From Polyangiaceae bacterium (GTDB taxonomy: Bacteria; Myxococcota_A; Polyangia; Polyangiales; Polyangiaceae), in assembly GCA_013214025.1 (NCBI GenBank), contig JABSRN010000164.1:62001-126000 (forward strand): a stretch of 64,000 nt of DNA. Reading direction: 5' to 3'. The notes below the pieces were generated by a model. That model searched no databases, was not told where the DNA came from, and saw nothing but the letters and a program-made list of their open reading frames with translations. Shown piece by piece: positions 18,657 to 63,434 of the stretch. The first letter of the stretch is position 1, and every line of letters starts with the position of its first letter. A program made the translations under genes and the position numbers.

Positions 18657-19685
18657 ATGCGTCTACAGCGACTCTACACCGCCTCCGCCGTCCTTGCCCT
18701 CTGCACTCTGTCGGGGCTCGCATCCGCTGACGAGGTCGAGATCACCGAATCCGCCCGAGCGCACTTTCGCGCCGGCGTCAACATGCTGCAGGATCCCGAC
18801 GGCGCCCAGTACGAACTGGCTTACCAAGAGTTCCAGGCCGCCTATCGCGACTCGCCTTCCTGGAAAATCCTCGGGAACTTGGGCATCGCTGCGATGAAAC
18901 TGGAGCGCTACGGCGATGCTACCGAAGCCTTCGAGAAGTACTTAAGCGGCGGAGGCATGGCTCTCGATCCCGTGGACCGCGCTCAGTATCAACGCGATCT
19001 GCAGACTCTGAAGACAAGCGTCGTTACCGTAACTCTCACCGTAGTCCCTCCGGGAGCGCGCATCCTCGACGAACGGATCCCCAGCCGAGGGGCGGCGATC
19101 TTGAACCGATACAAGCTGCAAGATGACGGCACCAAAACGCTCGGCATTCGGCCGGGACATCACCGACTCACCATTCGTTCCGCGGGCTACAACGCCCACG
19201 TTTGGGAATTCGACGCCACGAGCGGCGACAAGCTCAGTCACGAAGTCGTGCTGAAGAGTGAAGACGCCGGCGCTGCAGCCACGGCCCCCGTAGCTGCAGC
19301 GCCGGAAGCTGCCACTCCTGCGCCAGCTCCGGTCGCCACTGAGCGACCCGTTCCCACTAGCGTGTTCATCGGACTGGCCGCAACCGGCGTCTTCGCCGTG
19401 GGCGGCGGAATCGTTGGCGTTATGGCCATGGGAAAAAACAGCGACTTTCAGGACGCCAACTCAGGCGACGACCCGGCCGCCGCCGAAGAGCTGCGAGACA
19501 GCGGAACCATGCTCAACCTCATCGCAGACGGAATGCTCGCCGGCGCTGTGATTGCGGGCGCTGTGACCACGTATCTCTACATGGACCGTCCGGAGGTCTC
19601 CGTGCCGAAAGACAGCGCCAAATTCCGGGTGCTGCCGAGCGTGACTGCCGGCGGCGCCGGACTCTGGCTCAACGCGCAGTTTTAG
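18657..19685 (+). CDS. Exported TPR and PEGA-domain membrane protein
   Basis: 342 residues; a family expanded in myxobacteria and without known function. Signal peptide MRLQRLYTASAVLALCTLSG. A tetratricopeptide-like segment (about 30-110) includes LAYQEFQAAYRDSPSWKILG and YGDATEAFEKYLSGG. A PEGA domain (about 125-205) has VVPPGARILDERIPSRG, RPGHHRLTIRSAGY and a beta strand after it. An Ala/Pro linker is followed by two hydrophobic helices (about 235-255 and 285-310) and a short tail ending in Phe, typical of envelope proteins. Divergent from the barrel gene at 18392. The 3' end reads TTTTAG then TAAAG within a near-duplicated stop context. Confidence 0.78.
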   Translation: MRLQRLYTASAVLALCTLSGLASADEVEITESARAHFRAGVNMLQDPDGAQYELAYQEFQAAYRDSPSWKILGNLGIAAMKLERYGDATEAFEKYLSGGGMALDPVDRAQYQRDLQTLKTSVVTVTLTVVPPGARILDERIPSRGAAILNRYKLQDDGTKTLGIRPGHHRLTIRSAGYNAHVWEFDATSGDKLSHEVVLKSEDAGAAATAPVAAAPEAATPAPAPVATERPVPTSVFIGLAATGVFAVGGGIVGVMAMGKNSDFQDANSGDDPAAAEELRDSGTMLNLIADGMLAGAVIAGAVTTYLYMDRPEVSVPKDSAKFRVLPSVTAGGAGLWLNAQF

Positions 19686-19958: not shown

Positions 19959-21425
19959 CTAAAAACACAGTGCGCCACTTGAACGTGTCGCCAGGGCGCG
20001 GAATCTGTCGATCCCTAGACCATTCAATGAGCCGATGACGGAGACATTGGGCGACGTGGGGTTGTCGTTGTACTCATACGCAAACACACCGGCCAAAGTG
20101 GTTCTAAAGATTCGTTTGGTATATTCCTCGTACACCAGCACACCCGCGGGATCGTTGATGCACTGCCGTCCGACCGTGTCGGAGGCAGTGCCTCCGAGGG
20201 GAATCGAGGTGATAGCCTGGTCGGAAGCAATGCTGTTGACGAACACCACATTGTCACAGCGAGAGAGCGTGACGCTAGATATCCGATTCGCTTGAATGGG
20301 AAAGTCGAAGGCTGGCTGCCCGTTTGGCATGTTGTCTCGACCGAATTCCTGAAGGCTACCGGTGCCCGTCAGATTGGCTCCCGTCGCGCAATTCGCGGGC
20401 TGCACCTCAGAGAATTCTGGCGGTAAGGCAATGAGATAACTGCGGTCGCGCTCGACGTAGCCCACTCCCCCAATCGACCCCAATCGACCGATGACGTCGC
20501 TGACCCCTCTGGACTGAAACGTCAGGTTGCTCGCCAGTGTATAACGCATGAGCCGAGCCTCGCAGTCCTGCACTCCACCGTCCGGAGTGACGCAATTGCC
20601 CTTTAGCAACATGGAAACATCGCCGCCCTGGATGCCCGCCGCCGCTGGTTTGAGGCCTAGCAACCCGAGGGAAGTGAAGCCATCGAGGATGCGCTCAGTG
20701 GTGATCGCCGTGACCTCAACCGGATCGGTGATATCCAAAAACGTCGTCGCGACTGCAGGAGGGCCGGCTTCGCCCAATAGATAGGACACATAGGCCAGCG
20801 CCCCCCGAAGAACGACGATTTGGCCATCCAGCGTCGTCGCCGGGACCTTGGTCGTGGAGATGGTCTCCCAAGCTCCCGTGTGGGTGTTCAGCGTGCGGCG
20901 ATGAAGAAAGAACGGATCCTGCGGACCGGCATTCACGTCTTCCTCGAAGAGATACCACTCGTCGGCGGACGCTTCGTGGGCGATGCCATAGATTTCGCCG
21001 TTAAACTCTTCGGTATCTAAGGGCACCGTCGGGTTAGCGGGATCCAACACCACGATTGCCGGCACGTCGTCAGGAGTACGGCCCGAAAGCACGATGGCGC
21101 CTTCATTGGGTCCCGTATTCACTTCGCCACCGGTTCCGCCGTTGCCCGCGTCGGGGGCGCCACTGCCAGCGCTGCCACCAGTCGCCGCCGCCCCGCCGCC
21201 GCCGGAACTCGCATCTGCGGTGCCACCCGCGCCGCCTGTCGTGCCGCTGCCGCCACTTGAAGAACCGCCGGCGCCAGAAGCATCAAACCCTTCTTGGACG
21301 TCGTCGAAACTGTTGACGAGACTGCAACCAGCGAGCAGGGCCGTCAGACCCGCCCAGGAGCTAAGCCGGAGCGTTGGATTCATAAAGCGCTGTGTCATCT
21401 TATTCATCTGTAAAAAGCTGTTCAT
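19959..21425 (-). CDS. Large lipoprotein, possibly beta-propeller, last gene of peroxidase operon
   Basis: 488 residues with lipobox LLAGC near residue 35 and a long Gly/Ser/Ala-rich linker (about 45-100), then a compact beta-rich domain of about 380 residues. Repeated beta-strand patterns (GAIVLSGRTPDDVPAIVVLD, YGIAHEASADEWYLF, VFAYEYNDNPTSPNVSVIG) suggest a propeller-like fold, but I do not recognise the family. The N-terminus is uncertain: four Met codons lie close together and an imperfect tandem copy of ATGAA/TTTTTACAG surrounds the first two. It follows the fibronectin/cytochrome gene by 27 bases and is probably co-transcribed. Likely anchored to the outer membrane. Confidence 0.72.
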   Translation of the reverse strand: MNSFLQMNKMTQRFMNPTLRLSSWAGLTALLAGCSLVNSFDDVQEGFDASGAGGSSSGGSGTTGGAGGTADASSGGGGAAATGGSAGSGAPDAGNGGTGGEVNTGPNEGAIVLSGRTPDDVPAIVVLDPANPTVPLDTEEFNGEIYGIAHEASADEWYLFEEDVNAGPQDPFFLHRRTLNTHTGAWETISTTKVPATTLDGQIVVLRGALAYVSYLLGEAGPPAVATTFLDITDPVEVTAITTERILDGFTSLGLLGLKPAAAGIQGGDVSMLLKGNCVTPDGGVQDCEARLMRYTLASNLTFQSRGVSDVIGRLGSIGGVGYVERDRSYLIALPPEFSEVQPANCATGANLTGTGSLQEFGRDNMPNGQPAFDFPIQANRISSVTLSRCDNVVFVNSIASDQAITSIPLGGTASDTVGRQCINDPAGVLVYEEYTKRIFRTTLAGVFAYEYNDNPTSPNVSVIGSLNGLGIDRFRALATRSSGALCF

Positions 21426-21452
21426 CTGTAGAAAGCTAGTCTGCCTTGGAAG

Positions 21453-23303
21453 CTAGTTGTTCTGGGCGCCTTGGGATATCCAGCGGCCGATCAAGTCGAT
21501 ATCTTCCTGCAGCAACGGTGTCTGACCTCGCGGCATGCGAAGGCCAACAGGGGGGATATCCAGCGAAATTTTGCGATAGAGCAGGCTGTCCTCTGGGGTA
21601 CTACTGCTGGAGTCGATACGTTTGTAGAACGAGCCCACCGGGAAATTCGGGTCGATCTCTGTGACCACCGACTGGGCGGCAACGACGTCGACAATGCTGA
21701 AGTAAGCAAAACCACGCGACAGGTTCTGGCCGAGCACGGGATCAGCGCCTGAGTGGCAGCCGACGAGGGTGCAACGCTGGGTGAAGATGGATTGCACGTC
21801 CTGCTCGAAACTAACGTCCGTGACACCACCGAGTTCCGTCGTGTTATCATCCTCGTTGCCCGCTTGATCCACCGCATGCACAACGAAATACTGCGAAGTA
21901 TCAGACTCGATACCGGTGAGCGTGACCGACGTTTCTCCGGGCGCCGACTCCATCGTGGGTGGCGATTCGAAGTCATGACCCGCTGACGTTTCTGAAACGT
22001 AAATCCGGTATCGAATGTTCTGCGAGGCAGTTCGGTCGTCAGTTGCAGCGTCCCAACCCAAATCCGCAAAAGTAGAGCTGAGCTCCATTCCGGTGATACC
22101 GCTAAAGACGGGAGCCGCCCCGTCGTCCACTGTCGTGAACTCGCGGGCAGAGAGATTGCTATCTTCGTTGCCTACGGCGTCCGCTGCACGGCACACGAGA
22201 TAGTAGTGGGTCGCCGGTAGAATGCCCTGCACGGTGGCAGAGGTTCCGCCCACGAAGGACCCGACCGGCTCGCCTAGATCTAGCGAGCCACCGTCACCGT
22301 TCTCATCAATAAAGAGCGGAACATCGGAGGCGTACACATTGTACGTGATCTCGTCTGCAGGAGTCACGTCGTCCGCCGCCGGTTGCCAAGTAACAAACAC
22401 ATTGCTCGCACCCGGATCCGTAGCGTTCTCGCAGCCGCCGAACACCGGCGGCGTTGTATCCGGCAAAGTTGTAGCGGGCACCTCGATGGCATTGGAATCA
22501 GCGTTGTTGCTGGCATCGACAGCGCGAACCGCGAAGAAATAGTCCGTCTCCGCCAATGGCAAGAGATCGAAGGAGAGCTCCGTAACGCCTGGAGGCGTGA
22601 CCGCGGAAATATCCGAGCTGGCAGCCAAGGTCTCCGTCTCAGAGAATGAGATTAGGTAGCGAATGGCGTCGCCCGGAGTCTGATCGTCCGTGGCAGCCGT
22701 CCACGTCAAGCGAACCGAGGTCGCCCCATCACCAACCGCCGTTTCCAGGCCAGCGAACTCTGGCGGAACGATATCCGCCACGGGAATGGCGCTCACTTCT
22801 ACCGAATTGGCGTCTTCTTCCCCTGCACTATTCACGGCACGGACGACGAAAAACACCTCTACGCCGGGCTCGAGATTTTGCACAACCAGCGATGAGGCCC
22901 CAGGCGGCGTGACCATCGGGTCCCCAAAGTTTTGGCCGCCAGCGGCAAGCGAGCTGTAGACGTTGTACAGAATTCGCGAACCCTGAGTATCTTCATCGGA
23001 CGCAGGGCCCCAGGTCACCATCAGACTCGTGGCGGAAGCCGTTGCCGCGGCGGTAGCGCCATCGAAGCTGGGCCCGACTGCCTCGCCGGGATTGCCGCCG
23101 CTGTCGGAGGTCACCCCCGAATCCGGGTCCGTGCCCGATAGCGTGGGGGCCACGATGCAGGTCAAGCCCGTTTTCAGCGTGCCCGGGCCACACGAAACCT
23201 GCTCTTCTTCGCTACATGCCGCAGCCACTGTCAACGCCGTCGCGCCCGTGGCGAGCAGTAGCCCGATAAAACTGCGAGAGTTGCGGTGTATTGGATTCTG
23301 CAT
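21453..23303 (-). CDS. Lipoprotein with fibronectin-III repeats and C-terminal cytochrome domain
   Basis: 616 residues from the ATG at 23303, five bases after the upstream gene's stop; the longer open frame overlaps that gene and is not used. A signal sequence with lipobox (VAAAC near residue 30) is followed by four fibronectin-III-like repeats (about 75-500), each with a VTW or LTW strand and a YF/YLVxRAxDxxGNEDxN strand. The C-terminal 110 residues resemble planctomycete-type cytochrome c (PSCyt1) domains: SIFTQRCTLVGCHSGA carries a CX4CH heme-type motif. It then has RMPRGQTPLLQ and ends IGRWISQGAQNN. Haem attachment by CX4CH is inferred, not proven. Likely surface-exposed electron carrier. 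Confidence 0.82.
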   Translation of the reverse strand: MQNPIHRNSRSFIGLLLATGATALTVAAACSEEEQVSCGPGTLKTGLTCIVAPTLSGTDPDSGVTSDSGGNPGEAVGPSFDGATAAATASATSLMVTWGPASDEDTQGSRILYNVYSSLAAGGQNFGDPMVTPPGASSLVVQNLEPGVEVFFVVRAVNSAGEEDANSVEVSAIPVADIVPPEFAGLETAVGDGATSVRLTWTAATDDQTPGDAIRYLISFSETETLAASSDISAVTPPGVTELSFDLLPLAETDYFFAVRAVDASNNADSNAIEVPATTLPDTTPPVFGGCENATDPGASNVFVTWQPAADDVTPADEITYNVYASDVPLFIDENGDGGSLDLGEPVGSFVGGTSATVQGILPATHYYLVCRAADAVGNEDSNLSAREFTTVDDGAAPVFSGITGMELSSTFADLGWDAATDDRTASQNIRYRIYVSETSAGHDFESPPTMESAPGETSVTLTGIESDTSQYFVVHAVDQAGNEDDNTTELGGVTDVSFEQDVQSIFTQRCTLVGCHSGADPVLGQNLSRGFAYFSIVDVVAAQSVVTEIDPNFPVGSFYKRIDSSSSTPEDSLLYRKISLDIPPVGLRMPRGQTPLLQEDIDLIGRWISQGAQNN

Positions 23304-23307
23304 CGCC

Positions 23308-25572
23308 CTAATTCCCGTTCGCACCTTGCTCAATCCATGAGCGCAATATGTCGTCTTCGTCACCCGTGAAGGCGGAGTCATTCCGCGGCTCTTGGGGCCC
23401 CACGTAGGTGTTGGGCAGGCCTGCCGAGAACGGCGCACCTTCGAAACCTAGCGGGTTAATTCTGCGGTAAATCAAGCTCATCTCTGGCCTGCCGTTTTGA
23501 TCGATGAAGGGCAAACGCTCCGTACCGACGCTTTCGTCTGCATAGGAGCTGACCCGAACCAATGAGTTGATGTTGCCGAAATCTGGGCGTTCTGCGGCGC
23601 CGCCATCAACCCCCGCATCCAAATCGACATCCGGGTGGATGCCTCCGGAATGACAGGCCACGCATCGCGATTCCAGCAGGGGTTTGACATTGGCTGTCCA
23701 GCTGGTGGCGGTACGAGCGATCACGAAGTTCGCGTCAGTCAGGATGTTGCCTGCGGCGTCTTCCGGACGGATGTACACGTAGTGATCCGTTCGCGGAGCT
23801 AGGCCGTCCAGATTGATAGCGAGCGTCCCGGCGGTCGTCGTTGAGTGGATGTGTCGATAAAATTCGTTACCGACACACTCTGACTGGCTCCCCTGTTCGG
23901 CGACGCACAGGTGATAGAGCATCGTCCCCTCGCCGCTTCCCACGCCAGGCGCCGATGCATCGCCGCCGTCCGCGCCACCGTCTACGCTGCCGGCCGACAC
24001 CTCTTCGAAAGCCGGCGACCACGTGGCGGCCAAGCGAAAACTGAGCCCGACGTCCATCTCAGCGCTCACGTCGCTAGACGACCATAGAGGCAAGGTGACG
24101 TCGTTGGTGGGCGCAGTAAGCGTGCTCTGACTGCGCTCCAAGTTGTTGTTGTCCAGATTTCCTGCTCGGTCTCGCGCCCGCACGACCGCGTAAACCAACT
24201 GACCGGGGGCGAGCCCGCTATAGGTGACCGAGGTCTCTCCCGGTCGAGTCACGATGGTCGCCTCAGTGAGCGGCGGGTTCGGTGAATCGCTAACGTAAAC
24301 CTCGTAACTGATCTGCAAGGCCGAATCCGTAGCGTCCACGGCGGCCACCCAGCGAAATTCGACCGTCGCCGGGCTGAGCGCGACCATAGTGCTGATGCCA
24401 CCGAACACAGGACTGATGATGTCGGGAACGCCGTCAGTCTTCGCACTGTGTTCGACGATGTTGCTATCGCTGTTGCCGGAGGGGTCACGAGCTCGGACCA
24501 CGTAGAAATACCGGGTACCAGCGGCCAATCCCGTCACCGTATGGCGGTGGGTGCCCGGTGATGACGTGTAACTGGGGCTCGAGTAGTCCTGGCCGTTCCG
24601 GGTAAGGGACTCGTAAATGTCGTAGACAATGTTCAGGCTGTCGCCTTGATTGTCCGTCGCGGGCGGCCAGTAGAGATGGACGCTGGTGCCGTCTTTTTCA
24701 GCGAGCACCAAGCCCTCGAATTCAGGCGGAATGCCTTCGGGAGTCGCGTCCGCCATTTGCCGAATGTTCGCGTCTTCGTTGCCGCTGGGATCCACAGCGC
24801 GCACGATGACGTGATAAACGGTGTTGGGGTCCCGGCCTTCCAGAATCACCGAGGTCTCCCCCGCTTCGCTGATGTAGGTGGGTGTCGAGAAGTCTTGGCC
24901 GCTGGCTTCGGTCGCCACGTAGACGCGATAAACCAGATCCCGGGGAGCGACGGCTCCATCGTAGGCGGCCCCCCACTCAATCAGCAGGCTGCGAGATGTG
25001 AGCGCATCAACATTTCGTACGCCGCCGAAGAACGGTGACGATTGATCCGGAGTAGAGGCCGAGACCTCAACGGTGTTGCCGTCCTCATTGCCGGCGCCAT
25101 CGACAGCGCGAACTACGAAGAAGTAGCCCAAGCCAGGCGTCAGCGTGTCGATGTACGCACTGGTGGCTCCAGCAGGCGCTCGGGCGGATATCTCAGTAAA
25201 ATCTTCCGCACCGGCGGCGTTCGCTGTGTACACCCGATAAGACAAACGCTCACTTTCGGAGACATCGTCTGTGGCAACTTCCCAGTGAACCCGCACGGTC
25301 GTTTCATCGATGACCTCAACACTGACCGCACCCGCGAAGGTCGGAGATGTTGTGTCGGCGGGAACCGCGCTGGTCCCACCGCTTCCGCCAGCCGCTGTGC
25401 CAGCTTCCGGCGGACCCGGACTGAGTTCTGGCTCTGCCTCGCCGACAGTCTGACAAGCCGACGCCATCAGCACCGCCATGCCGAACAATGCTGGGCTGAA
25501 CAAGGCTGGGCCCAGCCTAGCTCGGATTCGCTTCGGCACTCGATGCCGTGGCTGTGTTCCCCCAGCGGTCAC
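23308..25572 (-). CDS. Lipoprotein with fibronectin-III repeats and CxxCH cytochrome domain
   Basis: 754 residues; GTG start at 25572 overlaps the upstream peroxidase stop by one base (TAGTG), indicating translational coupling. Lipobox MASAC near residue 40, Gly/Ala linker, then four to five fibronectin-III-like repeats (from about residue 75), each beginning with a Pro-Phe-Gly type strand and ending VVRAxDxxGNxDxN. An Asp/Gly-rich insert lies near residues 520-545. The C-terminal domain has LLESRCVACHSGG (CxxCH, c-type haem) and an end LRSWIEQGANGN as in PSCyt1 domains. It is a paralogue of the next gene. Role inferred: extracellular electron transfer scaffold working with the peroxidase. 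Confidence 0.84.
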   Translation of the reverse strand: MTAGGTQPRHRVPKRIRARLGPALFSPALFGMAVLMASACQTVGEAEPELSPGPPEAGTAAGGSGGTSAVPADTTSPTFAGAVSVEVIDETTVRVHWEVATDDVSESERLSYRVYTANAAGAEDFTEISARAPAGATSAYIDTLTPGLGYFFVVRAVDGAGNEDGNTVEVSASTPDQSSPFFGGVRNVDALTSRSLLIEWGAAYDGAVAPRDLVYRVYVATEASGQDFSTPTYISEAGETSVILEGRDPNTVYHVIVRAVDPSGNEDANIRQMADATPEGIPPEFEGLVLAEKDGTSVHLYWPPATDNQGDSLNIVYDIYESLTRNGQDYSSPSYTSSPGTHRHTVTGLAAGTRYFYVVRARDPSGNSDSNIVEHSAKTDGVPDIISPVFGGISTMVALSPATVEFRWVAAVDATDSALQISYEVYVSDSPNPPLTEATIVTRPGETSVTYSGLAPGQLVYAVVRARDRAGNLDNNNLERSQSTLTAPTNDVTLPLWSSSDVSAEMDVGLSFRLAATWSPAFEEVSAGSVDGGADGGDASAPGVGSGEGTMLYHLCVAEQGSQSECVGNEFYRHIHSTTTAGTLAINLDGLAPRTDHYVYIRPEDAAGNILTDANFVIARTATSWTANVKPLLESRCVACHSGGIHPDVDLDAGVDGGAAERPDFGNINSLVRVSSYADESVGTERLPFIDQNGRPEMSLIYRRINPLGFEGAPFSAGLPNTYVGPQEPRNDSAFTGDEDDILRSWIEQGANGN

Positions 25573-27122
25573 TACTGGTTCTCGGTCTCACTCTTTACGA
25601 GAGTTGGGTGGTCGAAAGGCGCCAGTTCCGGGGTCGCGGCGACCCGCGGATCTGTCAGCGCATCCATGAACTTAATGATGTCCGTGATTTCTTCGTCCGT
25701 AAGATCGAGAGCAACAATGTCCGTGCTGACGATGGCCTGATCAGCAGGAATCAGATCTTCCAGGCCGCCCGTGTTGTAGACCGCCATGATCTCTTCGAGG
25801 CTGACTCCGGCTCCTGCGCCGCGAGAGAGCAACCCCCCCGCCACCCGCAGAGTCACGTTGCGAAGAGTCGGCGTCTTGAGCTTGCCGCGATCCGCCGGCA
25901 ATTCAGTCACGACTTCGCGACCGCTCATTCCGTTCGGAGCCTCGTCCCACGACGTGTGGTGGAAGCCGATGTAGTGGAAGAGGTTATCCGAGAACGTCGG
26001 GAGCGTGTGGCACGTGGTGCACTTGGCTTTGCCGCTGAAGAGCTCCCAGCCACGGACACGTTGGGCGTCCATGCCGCCCTCGTTGCTGGGCACGTCTATG
26101 CCGTCGACCCAGAGGTCGAACGGTGTTTGGTCCGATTTTAGTCGGCGTTCATGAGTCGCAATGGCCATCGCGATGCGCACGGCCGTGATCTCTCCTGCCC
26201 CGGCATCCCCGGCATCTGCCCCAGGCGTAACCTCGCCAAAAACTGCCGCGAACAAGGCTGGATAGCTGTTGCCGTAGTCCGCAATCAGCTGCTTGATATC
26301 GTCACCGGATCCGGAGGTGCCGTCCAACGGGATAACCGTGGCGAGCCTCGTCGTAATGGTGTCCCAGTCGTCGCCTTCGCAGGACATTTCGACAGGAGAC
26401 GTCGGCGGCCCCACCGCTTGGCTCTCAAGAGCAGCGAACTCGGTGAGAACAATCGAACCAGGATCTTCAGGGTCCATCGTTGGGTCCTTGAAGACGCTGG
26501 TCGCTCGCCCGTCCCAGAAGATGTTAGCTGCCCACATGGCGTCAATATAGGTCGGCGGTTTACGTCCGGTGACCTGTCGCAAGACCCCGGCATCCGCGAT
26601 GTTCTGCGTATCAATGCAGCGTCTGGTGCCGCGACCGCCGTGAATGTCGTCCTCCGTCCCAATCTCGTCGTCCGGGCCAGGCAAGAACGAGCGGTCGTCG
26701 CTGGCGCGCGGATCCGAACCGCCCGCGTTGCCCCGGTGACAACTCCCGCAAGCCACAGTGCCGTTGCCGCTCATGGCCTCTTCCCAAAACAGCATCTTGC
26801 CGAGGGTCGCCTTATCGTCCGTATGGGGGTTGCCAGTGGGATACGGCACCTCCAAATCGGCGTAGCGAGGAATCGGAGCAGCGTCAGCACCCGTATCGGG
26901 CAGCACGCCCGTTTCGGCCCCCGTCTGAGAGTCCGTCGACGAATCCCTACCGGCTTCGCCAGTAGCGCCACCTCCGCCCGCCGCAGATGACTCCATTGAT
27001 GTATCGGTTAACGCGCCACCGCTGTCCGGGGCGGGTTTCGATGTCGTCGAATCGTCACTGCAGGCGTACACGAGAGCCGACCCACAGACAGCGGCCCAGA
27101 ACCAAGAGGGAGTAGCGTTCAT
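25572..27122 (-). CDS. Di-heme cytochrome c peroxidase (MauG/CcpA family) lipoprotein
   Basis: 516 residues from MNATPSW at 27122; the frame opens three codons earlier. Lipobox ALVYAC near residue 20 and a Gly/Ser/Asp-rich linker put the enzyme on the envelope surface. The peroxidase fold carries two c-type haem sites: VACGSCHRGN near residue 125 and AKCTTCHTLP near residue 370. Other family marks are LGKMLFWEEAMSGNG and DGRATSVFKDP, with GKLKTPTLRNVTLR in the second half. Family members reduce H2O2 or act as MauG-type oxidases. Its fused linker and downstream fibronectin/cytochrome genes suggest a surface redox module. Gene order peroxidase, FN3-cytochrome, FN3-cytochrome, lipoprotein is tight throughout. 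Confidence 0.88.
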   Translation of the reverse strand: MNATPSWFWAAVCGSALVYACSDDSTTSKPAPDSGGALTDTSMESSAAGGGGATGEAGRDSSTDSQTGAETGVLPDTGADAAPIPRYADLEVPYPTGNPHTDDKATLGKMLFWEEAMSGNGTVACGSCHRGNAGGSDPRASDDRSFLPGPDDEIGTEDDIHGGRGTRRCIDTQNIADAGVLRQVTGRKPPTYIDAMWAANIFWDGRATSVFKDPTMDPEDPGSIVLTEFAALESQAVGPPTSPVEMSCEGDDWDTITTRLATVIPLDGTSGSGDDIKQLIADYGNSYPALFAAVFGEVTPGADAGDAGAGEITAVRIAMAIATHERRLKSDQTPFDLWVDGIDVPSNEGGMDAQRVRGWELFSGKAKCTTCHTLPTFSDNLFHYIGFHHTSWDEAPNGMSGREVVTELPADRGKLKTPTLRNVTLRVAGGLLSRGAGAGVSLEEIMAVYNTGGLEDLIPADQAIVSTDIVALDLTDEEITDIIKFMDALTDPRVAATPELAPFDHPTLVKSETENQ

Positions 27123-28004
27123 AGTAAGCAACCTAAAAGCGGTAACGTCGAAGCGACGAAAACAGCGTTAGGCTACTCCAGCCGAAGCCATCACTCCAGC
27201 CCTTTAGAGCCTCTCCAACCCCGAGCGTCCGGCTGGTCTCGCCATACAGACTGCCGATCCGCGGGTCATCTAGACAGACTGCCCAGACTCGCCGCGCGCT
27301 CCTTCTACAATCAGACCGGCCGGGTTCGCTCAATGACAGGCCATTTTCACATTCCCCCTCGCGAGAACCGCCCCGCGAAAGCGCCTGACGAGTTTAGCAG
27401 GCGAGATCGGCGGCAGTGACTGGCGGCCGAAGGACCCGCATGTCGGATTCAGCGAGGTCGGCTCTTCGGGTGAGCGTAGCTTCCCGAAAACTGGGCGTCC
27501 GCGATAAGCGGGTCCGATAACCACTGTACGAAACCCCGGCCACCGAAAATTCAGGCCCCCAGTAGCCCTCGGCCCGCATCCAGTCCGTCGCAGCGGTGCC
27601 CCCGTCCGGCACGATCCCGAAAGGTGGTACACCTGGCGGTACTCCCTCGCCTTCTCTATTTTAGTTGTGTCGTCGTCTGAAACCGGAAAGCTCGCCCGAC
27701 GGCGTAACACACATGTAGGTCATGCCCTCAGGGGAGCCTGCGCTAATCCCATCAGTAAACGGCAGCGGTGATTCGCCCTACTGGTAAAGGGGTCGCGCGC
27801 GCCCAGCCCTCTATCACCCCGGCAAATCTCATCGCGGGCGTGAACAACGGTCCTGGAAATCGCACGGCGGGTTTCCTCGCCCCTCCAGCGCAGACTGCCG
27901 GCCCTGAGCCCCGTCAGACTGCCCCGTAAACGCCGGCGTCCCGACCACTGTGCCCAATGCAGCTCCAGTCACGCCGCTTTTCACTCACACGGGAACCTCT
28001 GATC
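27123..28004. other. Long divergent spacer between peroxidase operon and kinase
   Basis: About 880 bases with no gene I can support. A minus-strand open frame at 27394-27612 reads smoothly (EGYWGPEFSVAGVSYSGYRT) but has no recognisable family or ribosome binding site. Both flanking genes must have promoters here. No clear -35/-10 boxes were identified. Confidence 0.45.
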
Positions 28005-29582
28005 ATGTCTCAGCTTCTCTGCATCGAGGATTCTGCTCATGCTACAGTTCCAGGCAGTAAACAAAAAATGGCACTGAACACCGGCGAAATAATCGAAGGC
28101 AAATACCGAATCATCCGCTTGCTCGGCGAGGGCGGCATGGGGGCGGTCTATGAGGGCGAGAACACACTGATCCACCGAAGGGTGGCCATCAAAGTGTTGC
28201 ACGCAGGCGTAGCCGAAAACAAAGTGACGGTTCAGCGCTTCGAGCGCGAAGCCCAGGCGGCCGGACGCATCGGCTCCGAACACATCGTGGAAGTGCTCGA
28301 CCTCGGTACCCTCGAAAGTGGCGACCGCTTCATGGTCATGGAGTTCATGGACGGCGACAGCCTCGCCGAACGCTTAGAAAATGTAGGGAAGATAAGTGCA
28401 GAGGACCTCTGTCCCTTGGCCGAACAAATGCTCGACGGGCTTCAGGCCGCCCATAACGCGGAGATCATCCACCGCGATCTAAAACCCGACAACGTCTTCT
28501 TGTTGAAGAGCCGCGGAGGCACCACCGACTTCGTTAAACTGCTCGACTTCGGAATTTCGAAGTTCAACGCCATGTCCAACGAAGAGGGCTTCAGCATGAC
28601 GAAGACCGGCGTGATGATGGGGACTCCCTATTACATGTCGCCGGAGCAGGCCAAGGGCAGCAAGGCCATGAACCACCGCGCCGATCTGTATTCGATCGGC
28701 GTGATTCTCTATGAATGTGTGACCGGCCAGGTCCCCTTCAACGCAGACACTTTCAACGAGCTGCTCTTCAAGATCGGCCTCGAGGACCCGCCCCCTATCC
28801 ACGACATCGCCCCGGAGGTTCCGTCATCCTTCGTGAGGTTGATCAGCAAGGCGATGACGCGAGATCCGAACGAACGCTTCCAGACTGCGAATGAATTCAA
28901 GGACGCGCTGTCCGCCTGGGCGGAGAATTCGGGCGTGCAGTCCGTGCGCCCCATGGCACCCAATATGGATCCGCCAACGGGCACCGGGCTGATGCCTTCA
29001 CCAGCAACGCCCCATACCTTAACGCCAGGCAGAGGCAGCCACGTTCCTGGCTCCGCTCTACCGGGCGCCAGTCTTTCACTCGGCACGGGTACCCCGGGCA
29101 ATTGGGCACAGTCAACGCCGGCCCCTTACATCGAAGGCGCGAGTGGCGGCAATAAGTCGACGTACATGGTGGCCACGCTCGCCGGTCTCGTTCTGCTGGC
29201 CGGCGGTGGTGCCGCGTTCACCACCATGAACTCGGCGGAACCCGAGGTGGCGCCCATCGCGACAGGTCCGACGCCGGCCGAACTGGCACAAAAGGCAGCC
29301 GAAGAAGCCCGCGAAGAGACACGACTCGCTCGGGCTAGGGCTGACGAAGAGAAAGAGGCTCGACACAAGGCGGAAGAGGCAGCTACCAAAGCCACCGAAT
29401 CCGCCGAGGCAACTCGCGCTGCTGCCGCGGAAGCGGAAGCCGAACGTAAGCTGAAGGCCGAAGAAGCCGAAGCGAAAACGAAAGCCGCTCGTGCCAGGCG
29501 CGCCGCGTCCAAACCGAAGGCTAAAGCGAAAGCCGCCCCCGCAGCTGCGCCGCACCGACGCAAAATCCGAACAGAACTGTAG
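28005..29582 (+). CDS. Ser/Thr protein kinase with membrane anchor and coiled-coil tail
   Basis: 525 residues from the ATG at 28005. Alternatives are the ATG at 27957 (16 residues longer) and the ATG at 28068, which sits just before the kinase domain and also reads well. The kinase domain is canonical: GKYRIIRLLGEGGMGAVYEG, VAIKVLH, HRDLKPDNVFLL, LLDFGISKF and MSPEQAKG. It ends near residue 310. A Pro/Gly/Thr linker and one hydrophobic helix (MVATLAGLVLLAGGGAAF) follow. The last 120 residues are a Glu/Ala/Lys/Arg heptad-rich coiled coil, possibly periplasmic, and the protein ends in a very Lys/Arg-rich patch. Single gene, convergent with relA. Substrates unknown. Confidence 0.92.
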   Translation: MSQLLCIEDSAHATVPGSKQKMALNTGEIIEGKYRIIRLLGEGGMGAVYEGENTLIHRRVAIKVLHAGVAENKVTVQRFEREAQAAGRIGSEHIVEVLDLGTLESGDRFMVMEFMDGDSLAERLENVGKISAEDLCPLAEQMLDGLQAAHNAEIIHRDLKPDNVFLLKSRGGTTDFVKLLDFGISKFNAMSNEEGFSMTKTGVMMGTPYYMSPEQAKGSKAMNHRADLYSIGVILYECVTGQVPFNADTFNELLFKIGLEDPPPIHDIAPEVPSSFVRLISKAMTRDPNERFQTANEFKDALSAWAENSGVQSVRPMAPNMDPPTGTGLMPSPATPHTLTPGRGSHVPGSALPGASLSLGTGTPGNWAQSTPAPYIEGASGGNKSTYMVATLAGLVLLAGGGAAFTTMNSAEPEVAPIATGPTPAELAQKAAEEAREETRLARARADEEKEARHKAEEAATKATESAEATRAAAAEAEAERKLKAEEAEAKTKAARARRAASKPKAKAKAAPAAAPHRRKIRTEL

Positions 29583-48357: not shown

Positions 48358-48400
48358 AGCGTGCATTGACGTCTGCCAAACGATGCGTCATTCCAGATTC

Positions 48401-49042
48401 ATGAAAACCCTTCACCTGCTTGGCGTGCTCGGAATCGTTTCCTGCTCGGCAGGTGAAGACGGCAGCGGCAGCCCGGCCCGGGATGCCAGCAGCGATACGT
48501 CAGCGAATGCCAGCAGCGGCGGTGTCACGTTAGGCTCAGGAGACGTAGCCGCGACATCTGGAGGGACTGCTTCCAGTGGCGGCGGCACCAATTCTGGCAC
48601 TGGTGGCGCGAACAACCCTGCCGGCGGTGCCGGCGGGCAGAATTCGGGCAAGCCCGCTGATGCCGGAGGGAAAACCGATTCTGGAAAGTCCGACGTCGCC
48701 AAGCCAGACGGCGGAAAACCCGACTTCGGCGAGGAATGCAAAGTCGCCGCCGACTGTAGGCTGGTCAGCGACTGCTGCGGTCTCTGCATCGGCATTCCGA
48801 AGGACGACCTCGCGTTGTCGTGTTTGCTTCCCTGTAGCGAGTTGAGCCGTGACGGCTGCGCGGAACGGGGTATCGAGACGGCTCAGTGCATCAACGGAAA
48901 CTGCTCCGCTCAAGTCGATTGTGAGCAGAGCCCAGTCATGTGCGACATGATCATGAATTGCCCCGACGGACTGGTGCCCACCGTTATCGGCGATTGTTTC
49001 GGGCGTCTGTGTGTGGAGCCCGTTCAATGCGCCGAAGACTGA
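48401..49042 (+). CDS. Cys-rich lipoprotein, tandem copy 1
   Basis: 213 residues from MKTLHLLG (frame opens at 48383). Lipobox GIVSC near residue 14, then a Gly/Ser/Thr/Asp/Lys linker (20-110) and a compact domain of about 90 residues with twelve or more cysteines: VSDCCGLC, CAERGIETAQCINGNC and MCDMIMNCPDGLVP. The same cysteine pattern appears in the next gene; the pair is a tandem duplication. Disulfide-rich surface domain with unknown partner. Confidence 0.8.
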   Translation: MKTLHLLGVLGIVSCSAGEDGSGSPARDASSDTSANASSGGVTLGSGDVAATSGGTASSGGGTNSGTGGANNPAGGAGGQNSGKPADAGGKTDSGKSDVAKPDGGKPDFGEECKVAADCRLVSDCCGLCIGIPKDDLALSCLLPCSELSRDGCAERGIETAQCINGNCSAQVDCEQSPVMCDMIMNCPDGLVPTVIGDCFGRLCVEPVQCAED

Positions 49043-49104
49043 TTTCATCCGAAACGAAGCCGGGGCATGTTGACACCGAGCGCCCCCCACAGCACACCCG
49101 ACCT

Positions 49105-49671
49105 ATGAAACGCATCTGCCTCATTCTCGCCATTGGTTGCAGCTTTTTGGCGTGCACCGAGAGCGATTCGAACAGCCACTCTGAGGGGGGCGCCGACGGT
49201 AGCGCCACTGACGGCGGCGGGCAGAACGAGTCAGGCAGCGGCGCCACCGGCTCTGGCGGCAGTTCGGCTGGCGGCAGAGCCGGTGGCGGCACGTCCTCTG
49301 GTACTGCCGGGTCGGGCACCGCGGGCAACCCATCGGGCAATACCGGCGGTACTTCGAATAACACTGGCAGCGATTGCGAACGCTCCGCCGACTGCGACCT
49401 CATCAGCGATTGCTGCGGGACTTGCGAAAGCTTCCCTGAAGGCGAAGGCGTGGCCGTCTGCATGATGGCCTGCGATGCCGGATCCGACGGCTGCGTACAG
49501 CAGGGCGTAGTGGGCGCCGTCTGCATCAATGGTTCCTGCGACACCCAAGTCAACTGTGATGAAAGCGACGTCACGTGCGACATGATGATTAGCTGCATTG
49601 CTGGACTCGTCCCCAGCGTCGTCGGCAACTGCTACGGCGATTGCGTCGTTCCGGACCGCTGCGCTCCGTGA
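49105..49671 (+). CDS. Cys-rich lipoprotein, tandem copy 2
   Basis: 188 residues from MKRICLIL at 49105, with lipobox SFLAC. The linker is again Gly/Ser/Thr/Ala-rich, and the C-terminal domain repeats the copy-1 spacing: ISDCCGTC, GAVCINGSCDTQVNC, TCDMMISC and GLVPSVVGNCYGDC. Its linker sequence differs strongly from copy 1, while the cysteine domain is conserved, so the domain is under selection. The stop context TGAGCCGTC is repeated 17 bases downstream. Confidence 0.82.
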   Translation: MKRICLILAIGCSFLACTESDSNSHSEGGADGSATDGGGQNESGSGATGSGGSSAGGRAGGGTSSGTAGSGTAGNPSGNTGGTSNNTGSDCERSADCDLISDCCGTCESFPEGEGVAVCMMACDAGSDGCVQQGVVGAVCINGSCDTQVNCDESDVTCDMMISCIAGLVPSVVGNCYGDCVVPDRCAP

Positions 49672-52364: not shown

Positions 52365-52823
52365 TCAATTTTTGCTCGGTGCGGCTTCCAGACGCCGCTT
52401 CAGGCAATCGAGATCGAGCAAGTTGGCGCGGCGCATCGACCACGACAACAGCGGGGCGGTGAAAGCCTGTAGCCCCTTGGCTTCCCCTCGGTTCCGAAGT
52501 GTCATTCGAGTACTGAGCACATCCCCCGGAAGCTCAAACCACTCGTAGGTGGTTTCCATCGGCATGGGTCCCTCATCGGTGCGCATAACCAAGCGCCGCC
52601 CGGGCTCAAGCTCCACTACCTCGTAGGTGTAAGCGAGCTCCTTGCCCAAGAAGCTCGCGACATAAGAGACTCGACTTCCCAAGACCAACGGGGGGGATGT
52701 TTCCCAACGCACACTCTTGATGTTGACGTACCAGTCACAGGCCTTGGATGGATCGCCGGCGAAAGCCGACACTTCGTCTATGGGGCGTTGAATTACGATT
52801 TCGGTCTGAACGTCGACTGCCAC
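52365..52823 (-). CDS. SRPBCC family lipid-binding-like protein
   Basis: 152 residues with the polyketide cyclase/START fold pattern: EIVIQRPIDEVSAFAGDPS at the start, SYVASFLGKELAYTYEVVEL in the middle and a long C-terminal helix (LLSWSMRRANLLDLDCLKRR). Cytoplasmic, binds a hydrophobic ligand. Single gene, convergent with the barrel protein. Confidence 0.85.
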   Translation of the reverse strand: MAVDVQTEIVIQRPIDEVSAFAGDPSKACDWYVNIKSVRWETSPPLVLGSRVSYVASFLGKELAYTYEVVELEPGRRLVMRTDEGPMPMETTYEWFELPGDVLSTRMTLRNRGEAKGLQAFTAPLLSWSMRRANLLDLDCLKRRLEAAPSKN

Positions 52824-53044
52824 GGCGGTGCTCCTCTAACTGCCGCGAAACTGTAGTCCAGTCCCCCCGTCCCCCGACAGCACGGAGTTCAAGAACGAGC
52901 AAAAAGGGGATTCACCGTCGCTTTTCTCGGACTTTTTCCCCATACGCGAGGGGCTGGGAATTCTCCCGTCAGCCGCCCGTGACAACGGCCCGATCGACGC
53001 GGCGATGCTACAGTTGTGCTCACTACTTTCTTGGAGGGAGCGAC

Positions 53045-53737
53045 ATGCTCACAACGCGACGGCGATTTTTGGCGGGCGTCAGTACGGGACTCGGCGGGTT
53101 AGTCGTTGGCTGCGGGACCACCCAGACCGCGGACAATCCTGGCGGCCGTGGCGTTGGTGCAGCCAGCGCTGGCGGCTCAGGTGGGACGACGACCGGCGGC
53201 GGCTCAGGCAGCACAAGTGCCACGGACTCCGGCCTCCTCCTCGACTCAGGGGGCTGCATTGCGACAAATTCAGATGCTCAGGGCCCGTTCTATCGGCTCG
53301 GCACCCCAGTGCGCAGCAATCTAGATCTGTACGGTGAACAGGGAGACCGCCTGCAGCTGAGCGGCGTCGTCCGCGACGGGTCCTGTCAGGCCCTCGCCAA
53401 CGCGGTAGTCGAAATCTGGGCAGCTGACTCAGACGGCGTCTATGACAGCGATTCAGACGAACAGCGCTACTACGGGCAAGTGGCCACTGACGGGGACGGC
53501 CGCTATTCCTTCACCACTATCTCCCCCGGTCGATACCTCAACGGGAGCACCTTCCGACCCGCCCATATCCACATGAAAGTTTGGCTGGGTGACACCAACT
53601 TGCTCATTACCCAAATATATTTTGCGGGGGATCCCTATCTTGACGTTGATCCTTTGGCGGAGCCGTCCCGCACCATCGTTTTGGCGCAATCGTCGGGTCT
53701 GGTTCAGGGCGTGTTCGACGTAAATACGAACGCATGA
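53045..53737 (+). CDS. Tat-exported intradiol ring-cleavage dioxygenase-like lipoprotein
   Basis: 230 residues from the ATG at 53045, with GGAGGGAG just upstream. TTRRRFLAGVSTG is a twin-arginine signal and VVGCG a lipobox. A Gly/Ser/Thr linker follows. The catalytic domain resembles protocatechuate/catechol intradiol dioxygenases: VVEIWAADSDGVYDS, DGDGRYSFTTISPGRY and RPAHIHMKVW, which supply two Tyr and two His iron ligands. Envelope-exported members of this family exist in several phyla; substrate may be extracellular aromatics. The length is on the small side but complete. Confidence 0.85.
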   Translation: MLTTRRRFLAGVSTGLGGLVVGCGTTQTADNPGGRGVGAASAGGSGGTTTGGGSGSTSATDSGLLLDSGGCIATNSDAQGPFYRLGTPVRSNLDLYGEQGDRLQLSGVVRDGSCQALANAVVEIWAADSDGVYDSDSDEQRYYGQVATDGDGRYSFTTISPGRYLNGSTFRPAHIHMKVWLGDTNLLITQIYFAGDPYLDVDPLAEPSRTIVLAQSSGLVQGVFDVNTNA

Positions 53738-62744: not shown

Positions 62745-63434
62745 CTAAGGCGCTGCGCCAAAATCGTCGCTGTACGCATCCAAGCCGTGCAACGAAAACT
62801 CGCTAACCGGGACGAAGCGCAGTGCTGCCGAATTGATGCAGTATCGCAGCCCACCCTCGGCCGGGGGACCGTCGTTAAAGAGATGACCCAAATGGGAATC
62901 CGCGTGAAGCGAACGAACCTCAATGCGCACCATGTCGTAGGAAGTATCTGAAAGCTCAATGACGTTCTCTGCGACTAGAGGACGCGTGAACGAGGGCCAA
63001 CCGGTGTTCGAATCGTACTTGTCGAGGGAGCTGAAGAGCGGTTCATTGGAGACCACGTCGGTGTAGATGCCAGCCTCATGGTGGTCCCAAAACTCATTCT
63101 CAAATGAATACTCCGTCGCATCCTCCTGGGTCACGCTGAACTGCAGTGCGGTCAGAAACTCTCCGAGCTGAGCTTCGGTGGGTGGCGAGTAGGTATTGGC
63201 ATCAAATGGCGCGCCGAACTCCCACGGCACCGGCGCGGCGTCGACCGCCGCCCCTCCGGAATTGGCCCCGCTGGAGCCAACACTGCCGGAATCGACCTCG
63301 CCACTTGGGTTCCCCGTAGCGCTTCCGGAACCTGCGGGATCGGCGCCGTTCGTGTCGTCTGCGCAACCAGAAACGAGCCCGGCCAAGAGAAGAACGCTAC
63401 AAATGGTTGAGTGAGAGCTCATCTGTTGAGTCAT
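62745..63434 (-). CDS. msrB: Exported methionine-R-sulfoxide reductase (MsrB) lipoprotein
   Basis: 229 residues. Signal peptide with lipobox LVSGC near residue 23 and a Gly/Ser/Asp linker to about 70. The MsrB domain follows: [49 protein letters not shown] and catalytic [13 protein letters not shown]. The zinc-binding CxxC pairs of many MsrB proteins are absent. It repairs oxidised methionine on envelope proteins. Starts at 63434 or, less likely, 63422. Confidence 0.92.

Follow-up and report, generated by a model that had tools for sequence, protein, structure and literature searches.

Di-haem enzymes of the MauG kind oxidise residues of partner proteins, MauG acting in this way on pre-methylamine dehydrogenase and MbnH on MbnP, and in bacterial cytochrome c peroxidases (CCPs) a Met of the aligned segment binds the C-terminal haem. 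The state of the C-terminal haem in MauG is tyrosinate (PMC6797691). Hydrazine synthase combines an alpha subunit with a class-I c-type haem domain, a beta subunit that is a propeller and a gamma subunit that is MauG/CCP-like (PMC12607021), and the operon of the iron oxidase FoxE, in which Met is the distal haem ligand, also encodes the propeller quinoprotein FoxY (PMC10654088). Here we describe a locus of Polyangiaceae bacterium whose parts are of these known kinds and whose combination is absent from the literature searched. It lies in a window of 64,000 nucleotides (the whole stretch analysed; contig JABSRN010000164.1, positions 62,001 to 126,000) and consists of a four-gene operon at 19959-27122 of the window, on the minus strand, for a di-haem enzyme that should be read as MauG/MbnH-like, two lipoproteins with fibronectin type III repeats (FN3-1 and FN3-2) and a lipoprotein predicted to be a beta-propeller. 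On the best reading of sequence conservation, FN3-2 and the propeller protein are a constant core and the catalytic haem protein an exchangeable module, and it is this conserved modular make-up, more than a peroxidase function, that makes the locus interesting.

All four open reading frames are confirmed open at the positions claimed for them in a preliminary description of the window. The gene for the di-haem enzyme (25572-27122, ATG to TAG, 516 amino acids [aa]) overlaps by one base, at 25572, that for FN3-1 (23308-25572, GTG to TAG, 754 aa), which is separated by 4 nucleotides (nt; 23304-23307) from that for FN3-2 (21453-23303, ATG to TAG, 616 aa), and a gap of 27 nt (21426-21452) leads to the fourth gene (19959-21425, ATG to TAG, 488 aa), whose product has a Gly/Ser linker and the predicted propeller (19962-21107). 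Both FN3 proteins end in a haem domain, with CxxCH (CVACH; about 23311-23718) in FN3-1 and Cx4CH (CTLVGCH; 21456-21827) in FN3-2, and the enzyme has CxxCH at residues 125 and 368. These three CxxCH and one Cx4CH are the sole such motifs in the proteins called in the window (19,445 aa in total), in which about 0.1 CxxCH would be expected from composition alone. A lipid-attachment Cys is probable in all four proteins: LAGC of the fourth protein is a textbook lipobox, and the loose lipoboxes of the other three (VYAC, ASAC and AAAC) are backed by their orthologues, which have a Cys behind a hydrophobic segment at the same site (MFGC/ALAC/AVAC, ATGC/LMGC/GVGC and FSAC/LPGC/LPSC). The strand, the joints, the four lipoboxes and the haem motifs in three of the four proteins were thus all as first described. 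A scan for sigma-70 promoters and terminators gave sites no more numerous than in shuffled sequences.

Conservation was followed in 59 relatives, searched for the enzyme, FN3-1 and FN3-2, in 183 genomes of the order and in 377 genomes sampled across the phylum. Among the 59 relatives, the three genes adjoin one another in G006 and G027, and in each of these the fourth gene is also present, with the order unchanged (L054 4461-11545 and L055 5522-12497, the latter with one extra lipoprotein gene after the four), while in G121 (L145) the enzyme gene, FN3-1 and the start of FN3-2 are followed by the contig end. The four-gene order, proposed earlier as the check on this operon, is therefore shared by three genera of the family (the window's, G006 and G027) and partially so in G121. 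A profile of the fourth protein finds it in 17 of the 183 genomes of the order and in 7 of the phylum sample, all of these within the order and none outside. FN3-2 adjoins the propeller gene in 12 of the 17 propeller-bearing genomes (the window's included), and all FN3-2/propeller loci of these 12 genomes carry the Cx4CH tip, with the exception of a second copy in G050 (G050b).

It is in the catalytic haem protein that these loci vary. The MauG-like enzyme is present in four genomes (G000, which is the window's, G006, G027 and G121), and G020 and G035 instead have a five-haem cytochrome whose C-terminus is MYXO-CTERM-like, encoded between the lipoprotein that follows FN3-2 and a kinase; neither a MauG-like nor a five-haem gene was seen at the core loci of G118, G119, G135, G141 and G050. 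The five-haem cytochrome, which takes the place of the MauG-like enzyme at L060 17344-19239 and L064 2727-4568, shows a weak similarity to MtrC/MtrF, just under the Pfam cut-off. Its homologues occur in 51 of the 183 genomes and are thus widespread, and six other five-haem loci that were read (L146-L150 and L152) lie in other contexts and have no FN3 or propeller neighbour, so the link between this cytochrome and the cassette is drawn from G020 and G035 only. Not counted in the cassette were MauG-type relatives at 32-40% identity with unrelated neighbourhoods (L058, L059 and L151) and distant propeller homologues with no visible FN3 neighbour (G126, G130, G164 and G165). At L093, L094 and L085, distant propeller homologues adjoin a shorter protein with two CxxCH in place of an FN3 protein, which is perhaps another variant of the system.

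The enzyme belongs to the bCCP_MauG superfamily (PF03150, 104.9 bits; Pfam gathering cut-off 25.6), and a search of genome contigs with it gave one distant relative only. C125, C368, Trp203 (in FWDGR, between the haems) and the peroxide-site pair Gln235/Glu245 are invariant in seven enzyme homologues, and both haem motifs, Trp203 and Gln235/Glu245 also align in solved CCPs. The Met column of the CCPs 1iqc, 1nml and 2c1u is occupied by Tyr449, with Tyr in all cassette homologues, and MbnH (6e1c) has a Tyr in the same column, in the aligned YxxGG. The Met distal ligand of the C-terminal haem that defines CcpA-type enzymes is hence replaced by Tyr449, which by alignment only corresponds to the distal Tyr of MauG, and it is because of this residue that the enzyme should be read, from its sequence, as MauG/MbnH-like and not CcpA-like. 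The preliminary description had cited MauG/CcpA peroxidases as taking electrons from small cytochromes, which does not follow for an enzyme with the Tyr of MauG and MbnH in place of the CcpA Met. The enzyme falls outside the NCBIfam families of MauG (TIGR03791, 115.9 bits against a cut-off of 443.85) and MbnH (TIGR04039, 103.3 against 362.85), and its profile matches the solved structures of classical CCPs (E = 2.6e-43), MbnH 6e1c (3.4e-41) and, weakly, hydrazine synthase gamma (1.4e-5).

FN3 repeats are recognised by Pfam in FN3-1 (4.9e-23) and FN3-2 (2e-21), and the length of FN3-1, which has orthologues at L054, L055, L145, L060 and L062, ranges from 682 to 1841 aa. The C-terminal tips are predicted to be class-I c-type haem domains related to those of FoxE and hydrazine synthase alpha, on similarity in both sequence and fold: a profile of 18 tips finds FoxE best among solved structures (8.3e-9) and next the haem domain at the C-terminus of hydrazine synthase alpha (1.6e-7), and a model of the FN3-2 tip (pLDDT 81) aligns to both with a modest Z of 6.4-6.5. 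The C, the CH, a W and the WIxxGA end, in the C-terminal helix, are nearly invariant. These matches support the earlier idea of a lipoprotein redox operon whose FN3 proteins probably end in c-type haem domains. The likeness of the tips to a haem domain thus stands, and their assignment to the planctomycete cytochrome family PSCyt1 (PF07635) does not, with sub-threshold matches in 5 of 18 tips (best 7.2e-4) and none for the FN3-2 tip of the window.

A presumed distal Met of the tips, in an MP motif, aligns with RMP of FoxE and is kept in the aligned FN3-2 tips with the exception of G029, a divergent Cx3CH member. At this position, FN3-1 has Met in G020 and G050, whose loci lack the MauG-like enzyme, and Glu in all four MauG-linked copies, that of the window included. 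This is suggestive, at the level of sequence, of an FN3-1 haem site adapted to a MauG-like partner, and it offers a natural test of how a haem distal ligand changes upon a change of partner enzyme. A scan for residues specific to MauG-linked partners (Trp, Tyr, His, Met, Cys and Lys) gave one Tyr and one His in FN3-1, of which the His occurs only in MauG-linked copies, a single weak Cys in the propeller protein and an FN3-2 Tyr that is Phe in 6 of 9 others; no specific Trp emerged from it.

The fourth protein, first described as a large lipoprotein, is indeed a lipoprotein, and the description was incomplete in that the protein is predicted to be a beta-propeller and, together with FN3-2, to make up the core. 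No Pfam family matches it. Its AlphaFold2 model is all-beta (pLDDT 89, pTM 0.89) and aligns with seven-bladed propellers at Z 25-27 over about 310 residues with 7-11% identity, which predicts a propeller, seven-bladed by its matches, as an assignment of fold and not of sequence family; a lipoprotein family that was unannotated thereby gains a predicted fold. The matches are 6-phosphogluconolactonase-like proteins, aromatic amine dehydrogenase and the methylamine dehydrogenase heavy chain, which includes, at Z 25, the heavy chain in the MauG complex (3l4m_D). The predicted fold is that of lactonase-type proteins and amine dehydrogenase heavy subunits. Since propellers of this kind are common, the possible link of the propeller to MauG chemistry is a lead only.

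Our preferred reading, held tentatively and at somewhat less than even confidence, is an undescribed envelope lipoprotein redox assembly with an FN3-2/propeller core and an exchangeable haem enzyme, here MauG-like and coupled to FN3-1. In such an assembly, FN3-1 and FN3-2 would be FN3 rods with an N-terminal lipid anchor and a class-I c-type haem domain at the far end, and the lipid-anchored propeller protein would probably be a scaffold or dock. The MauG/MbnH-like enzyme would be brought by peroxide to a high-valent state and would then oxidise a co-encoded partner, most likely via the haem domain of FN3-1, whose haem site is altered from Met to Glu only at loci with the MauG-like enzyme. Complex formation, the direction of electron flow, peroxide as the oxidant and FN3-1 as the partner are what we infer in this model, and since lipoproteins can face either side of the outer membrane, the surface location first proposed, as opposed to a periplasmic one, is a possibility only. 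We consider unlikely the more ambitious proposal that the genes encode an envelope oxidoreductase of several subunits, as yet undescribed, with hydrazine-synthase/MauG-amine-dehydrogenase-type parts (MauG-like di-haem protein, propeller and class-I haem domain) on separate FN3-rod lipoproteins, with a swappable module and a Met-to-Glu site that has co-evolved with MauG.

Several observations weigh against the assembly. The change from Met to Glu is seen in four related sequences against two, and the MauG loci may share descent from one event, as suggested by a tree of FN3-2 and the lipoprotein in which the three complete MauG loci group together with a weak support of 74. G045 has MauG-like homologues on one contig without a visible FN3 partner and on another that ends too soon, and the former implies that the MauG-like enzyme can occur without that partner. 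FN3 rods and propellers, being common, could be purely adhesive or structural. The model as a whole stands on sequences (gene content, order and recurrence, exchange of the module, active-site residues and haem motifs) and on predicted propeller and cytochrome folds.

Two rival explanations assign the enzyme a different task. In the first of these, which we regard as having a low probability, although not a negligible one, it would mature its neighbours by oxidising residues such as Trp in the propeller or in one of the FN3 proteins, with the FN3 haems as bystanders. The MauG/MbnH-type Tyr and the loss of the CCP Met agree with this, as do the resemblance of the propeller to the heavy chains of methylamine dehydrogenase (MADH) and aromatic amine dehydrogenase (AADH), which are partners of MauG-type chemistry, and the fact that all operon proteins are predicted lipoproteins; however, the residue scan found no Trp conserved specifically in MauG-linked partners, the operon showed no substrate resembling MauA or MbnP, and the propeller is kept without MauG in at least eight genomes. 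Slightly less probable is peroxide detoxification, as first proposed, in which an envelope peroxidase would reduce H2O2 by means of electrons from the FN3 haem domains. The conserved Gln/Glu acid-base pair and haems would suit such a peroxidase, its profile is as good to classical CCPs as to MbnH, and FN3-2 retains a presumed His/Met haem fit for electron transfer, but the C-terminal haem has Tyr in place of Met in every close homologue, a feature that accompanies protein oxidation in MauG, and the constant core is also found without the enzyme.

The other two rivals turn on the FN3 proteins. Extracellular electron transfer, in which the FN3 tips and propeller would exchange electrons with a mineral, a metal or a neighbouring cell outside and be fed by the MauG-like enzyme or the five-haem cytochrome, strikes us as distinctly improbable: the tips have a relative in the iron oxidase FoxE, whose operon also includes a propeller quinoprotein, FoxY (PMC10654088), and the five-haem protein that serves as the alternative module has a MYXO-CTERM-like end and is weakly similar to MtrC/MtrF, but the MtrC/MtrF matches lie just under the cut-off, no porin-cytochrome conduit of the MtrAB/PioAB type was seen at the locus, and a single haem per long rod is poor wiring. 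It is more improbable still that the FN3 proteins are adhesins, with their haem domains and neighbours as accidental company, although FN3 repeats are common adhesive modules and their number varies freely, as in the range of FN3-1 lengths. The gene order is kept, and so is the haem motif in all complete FN3-2 copies but G050b, even though the repeat number varies. The modular redox assembly remains our preferred account of the locus.

The conserved unit is larger than four genes and takes in those on either side of the operon, both on the plus strand: a TPR/PEGA-like exported protein (18657-19685) and a Ser/Thr protein kinase (27957-29582; Pkinase 4.8e-47). Homologues of the former lie near the operon at L055, L060, L062, L087-L090 and L092, and a close kinase is also found at L060 and L064. 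The TPR protein of the G027 locus has a single strong copy in the window genome, that of the window (280 bits, next 29), and the window kinase is the best of 72 kinase matches to the kinase of that locus (464 bits, next 384). The same two genes flank an operon of opposite orientation in G027, from which we conclude that one of the two lineages has undergone an inversion of the operon, with the flanks conserved. The four-gene unit as first described was thus right in its genes and order and incomplete in that the MauG-like gene is exchangeable and the TPR protein and kinase also belong to the locus; a regulatory role for these two is a guess. In G006 (L054 1658-4291) and G121 (L145 5519-8209), but not in the window or G027, the MauG-like gene is directly preceded by a ModABC-type ABC transporter (SBP_bac_11, BPD_transp_1 in L145, and ABC_tran with TOBE). 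Elsewhere in the window, translations read by eye look like a lipoprotein methionine sulfoxide reductase B (62745-63434, minus strand), possibly a repair enzyme for the same compartment, and an exported intradiol ring-cleavage dioxygenase (52748-53737, plus strand), and a tandem pair of similar Cys-rich lipoproteins lies at 48383-49671 (plus strand).

With respect to known systems, the locus resembles MauG and pre-methylamine dehydrogenase, the system that matures tryptophan tryptophylquinone (TTQ), in pairing a di-haem enzyme that has a Tyr for its C-terminal haem with a seven-bladed propeller protein, and differs from it in that no quinone-bearing light subunit is present and the partners are lipoproteins with FN3 rods. 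No mauA/mauB-type partner genes were recognised in the operon, nor was a small quinone-cofactor subunit of the kind found in MADH, AADH and quinohaemoprotein amine dehydrogenase (QHNDH), for which the operon joints leave no room. MbnH is among the best solved relatives of the enzyme and shares its YxxGG Tyr, whereas an MbnP family match is absent from the four genes. Likeness to PSCyt1 is weak, FN3-2 having Cx4CH where that family has CxxCH.

The class-I c-type haem domain, the propeller and the MauG/CCP-like protein are all shared with hydrazine synthase, but in the window they are separate lipoproteins, the gamma match is weak and the anammox context is absent. Hydrazine synthase alpha has its alpha-I haem domain and an internal propeller fused to alpha-II, unlike the window FN3 proteins, in which FN3 repeats are combined with just one haem motif, at the C-terminus; membership was rejected because the alpha-I haem domain is missing. 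The FoxEYZ operon offers, in the haem domains of FoxE, the sequences that match the FN3 tips best, as well as a propeller; the window FN3 proteins have one haem each and not two, fused to FN3 repeats, and no pyrroloquinoline quinone (PQQ) protein was detected. By these membership tests the locus belongs neither to hydrazine synthase nor to FoxEY nor to MauG/amine dehydrogenase. The preliminary description knew of no system of this exact make-up, and none was found in the literature searched, in which a search for FN3 and MauG in myxobacteria gave no account of the locus. Set beside these systems, it is a conserved redox gene cluster in which a fixed FN3-haem/propeller core is combined with varying catalytic haem proteins, and it provides a new protein context for MauG-type chemistry, for which few partners are known.

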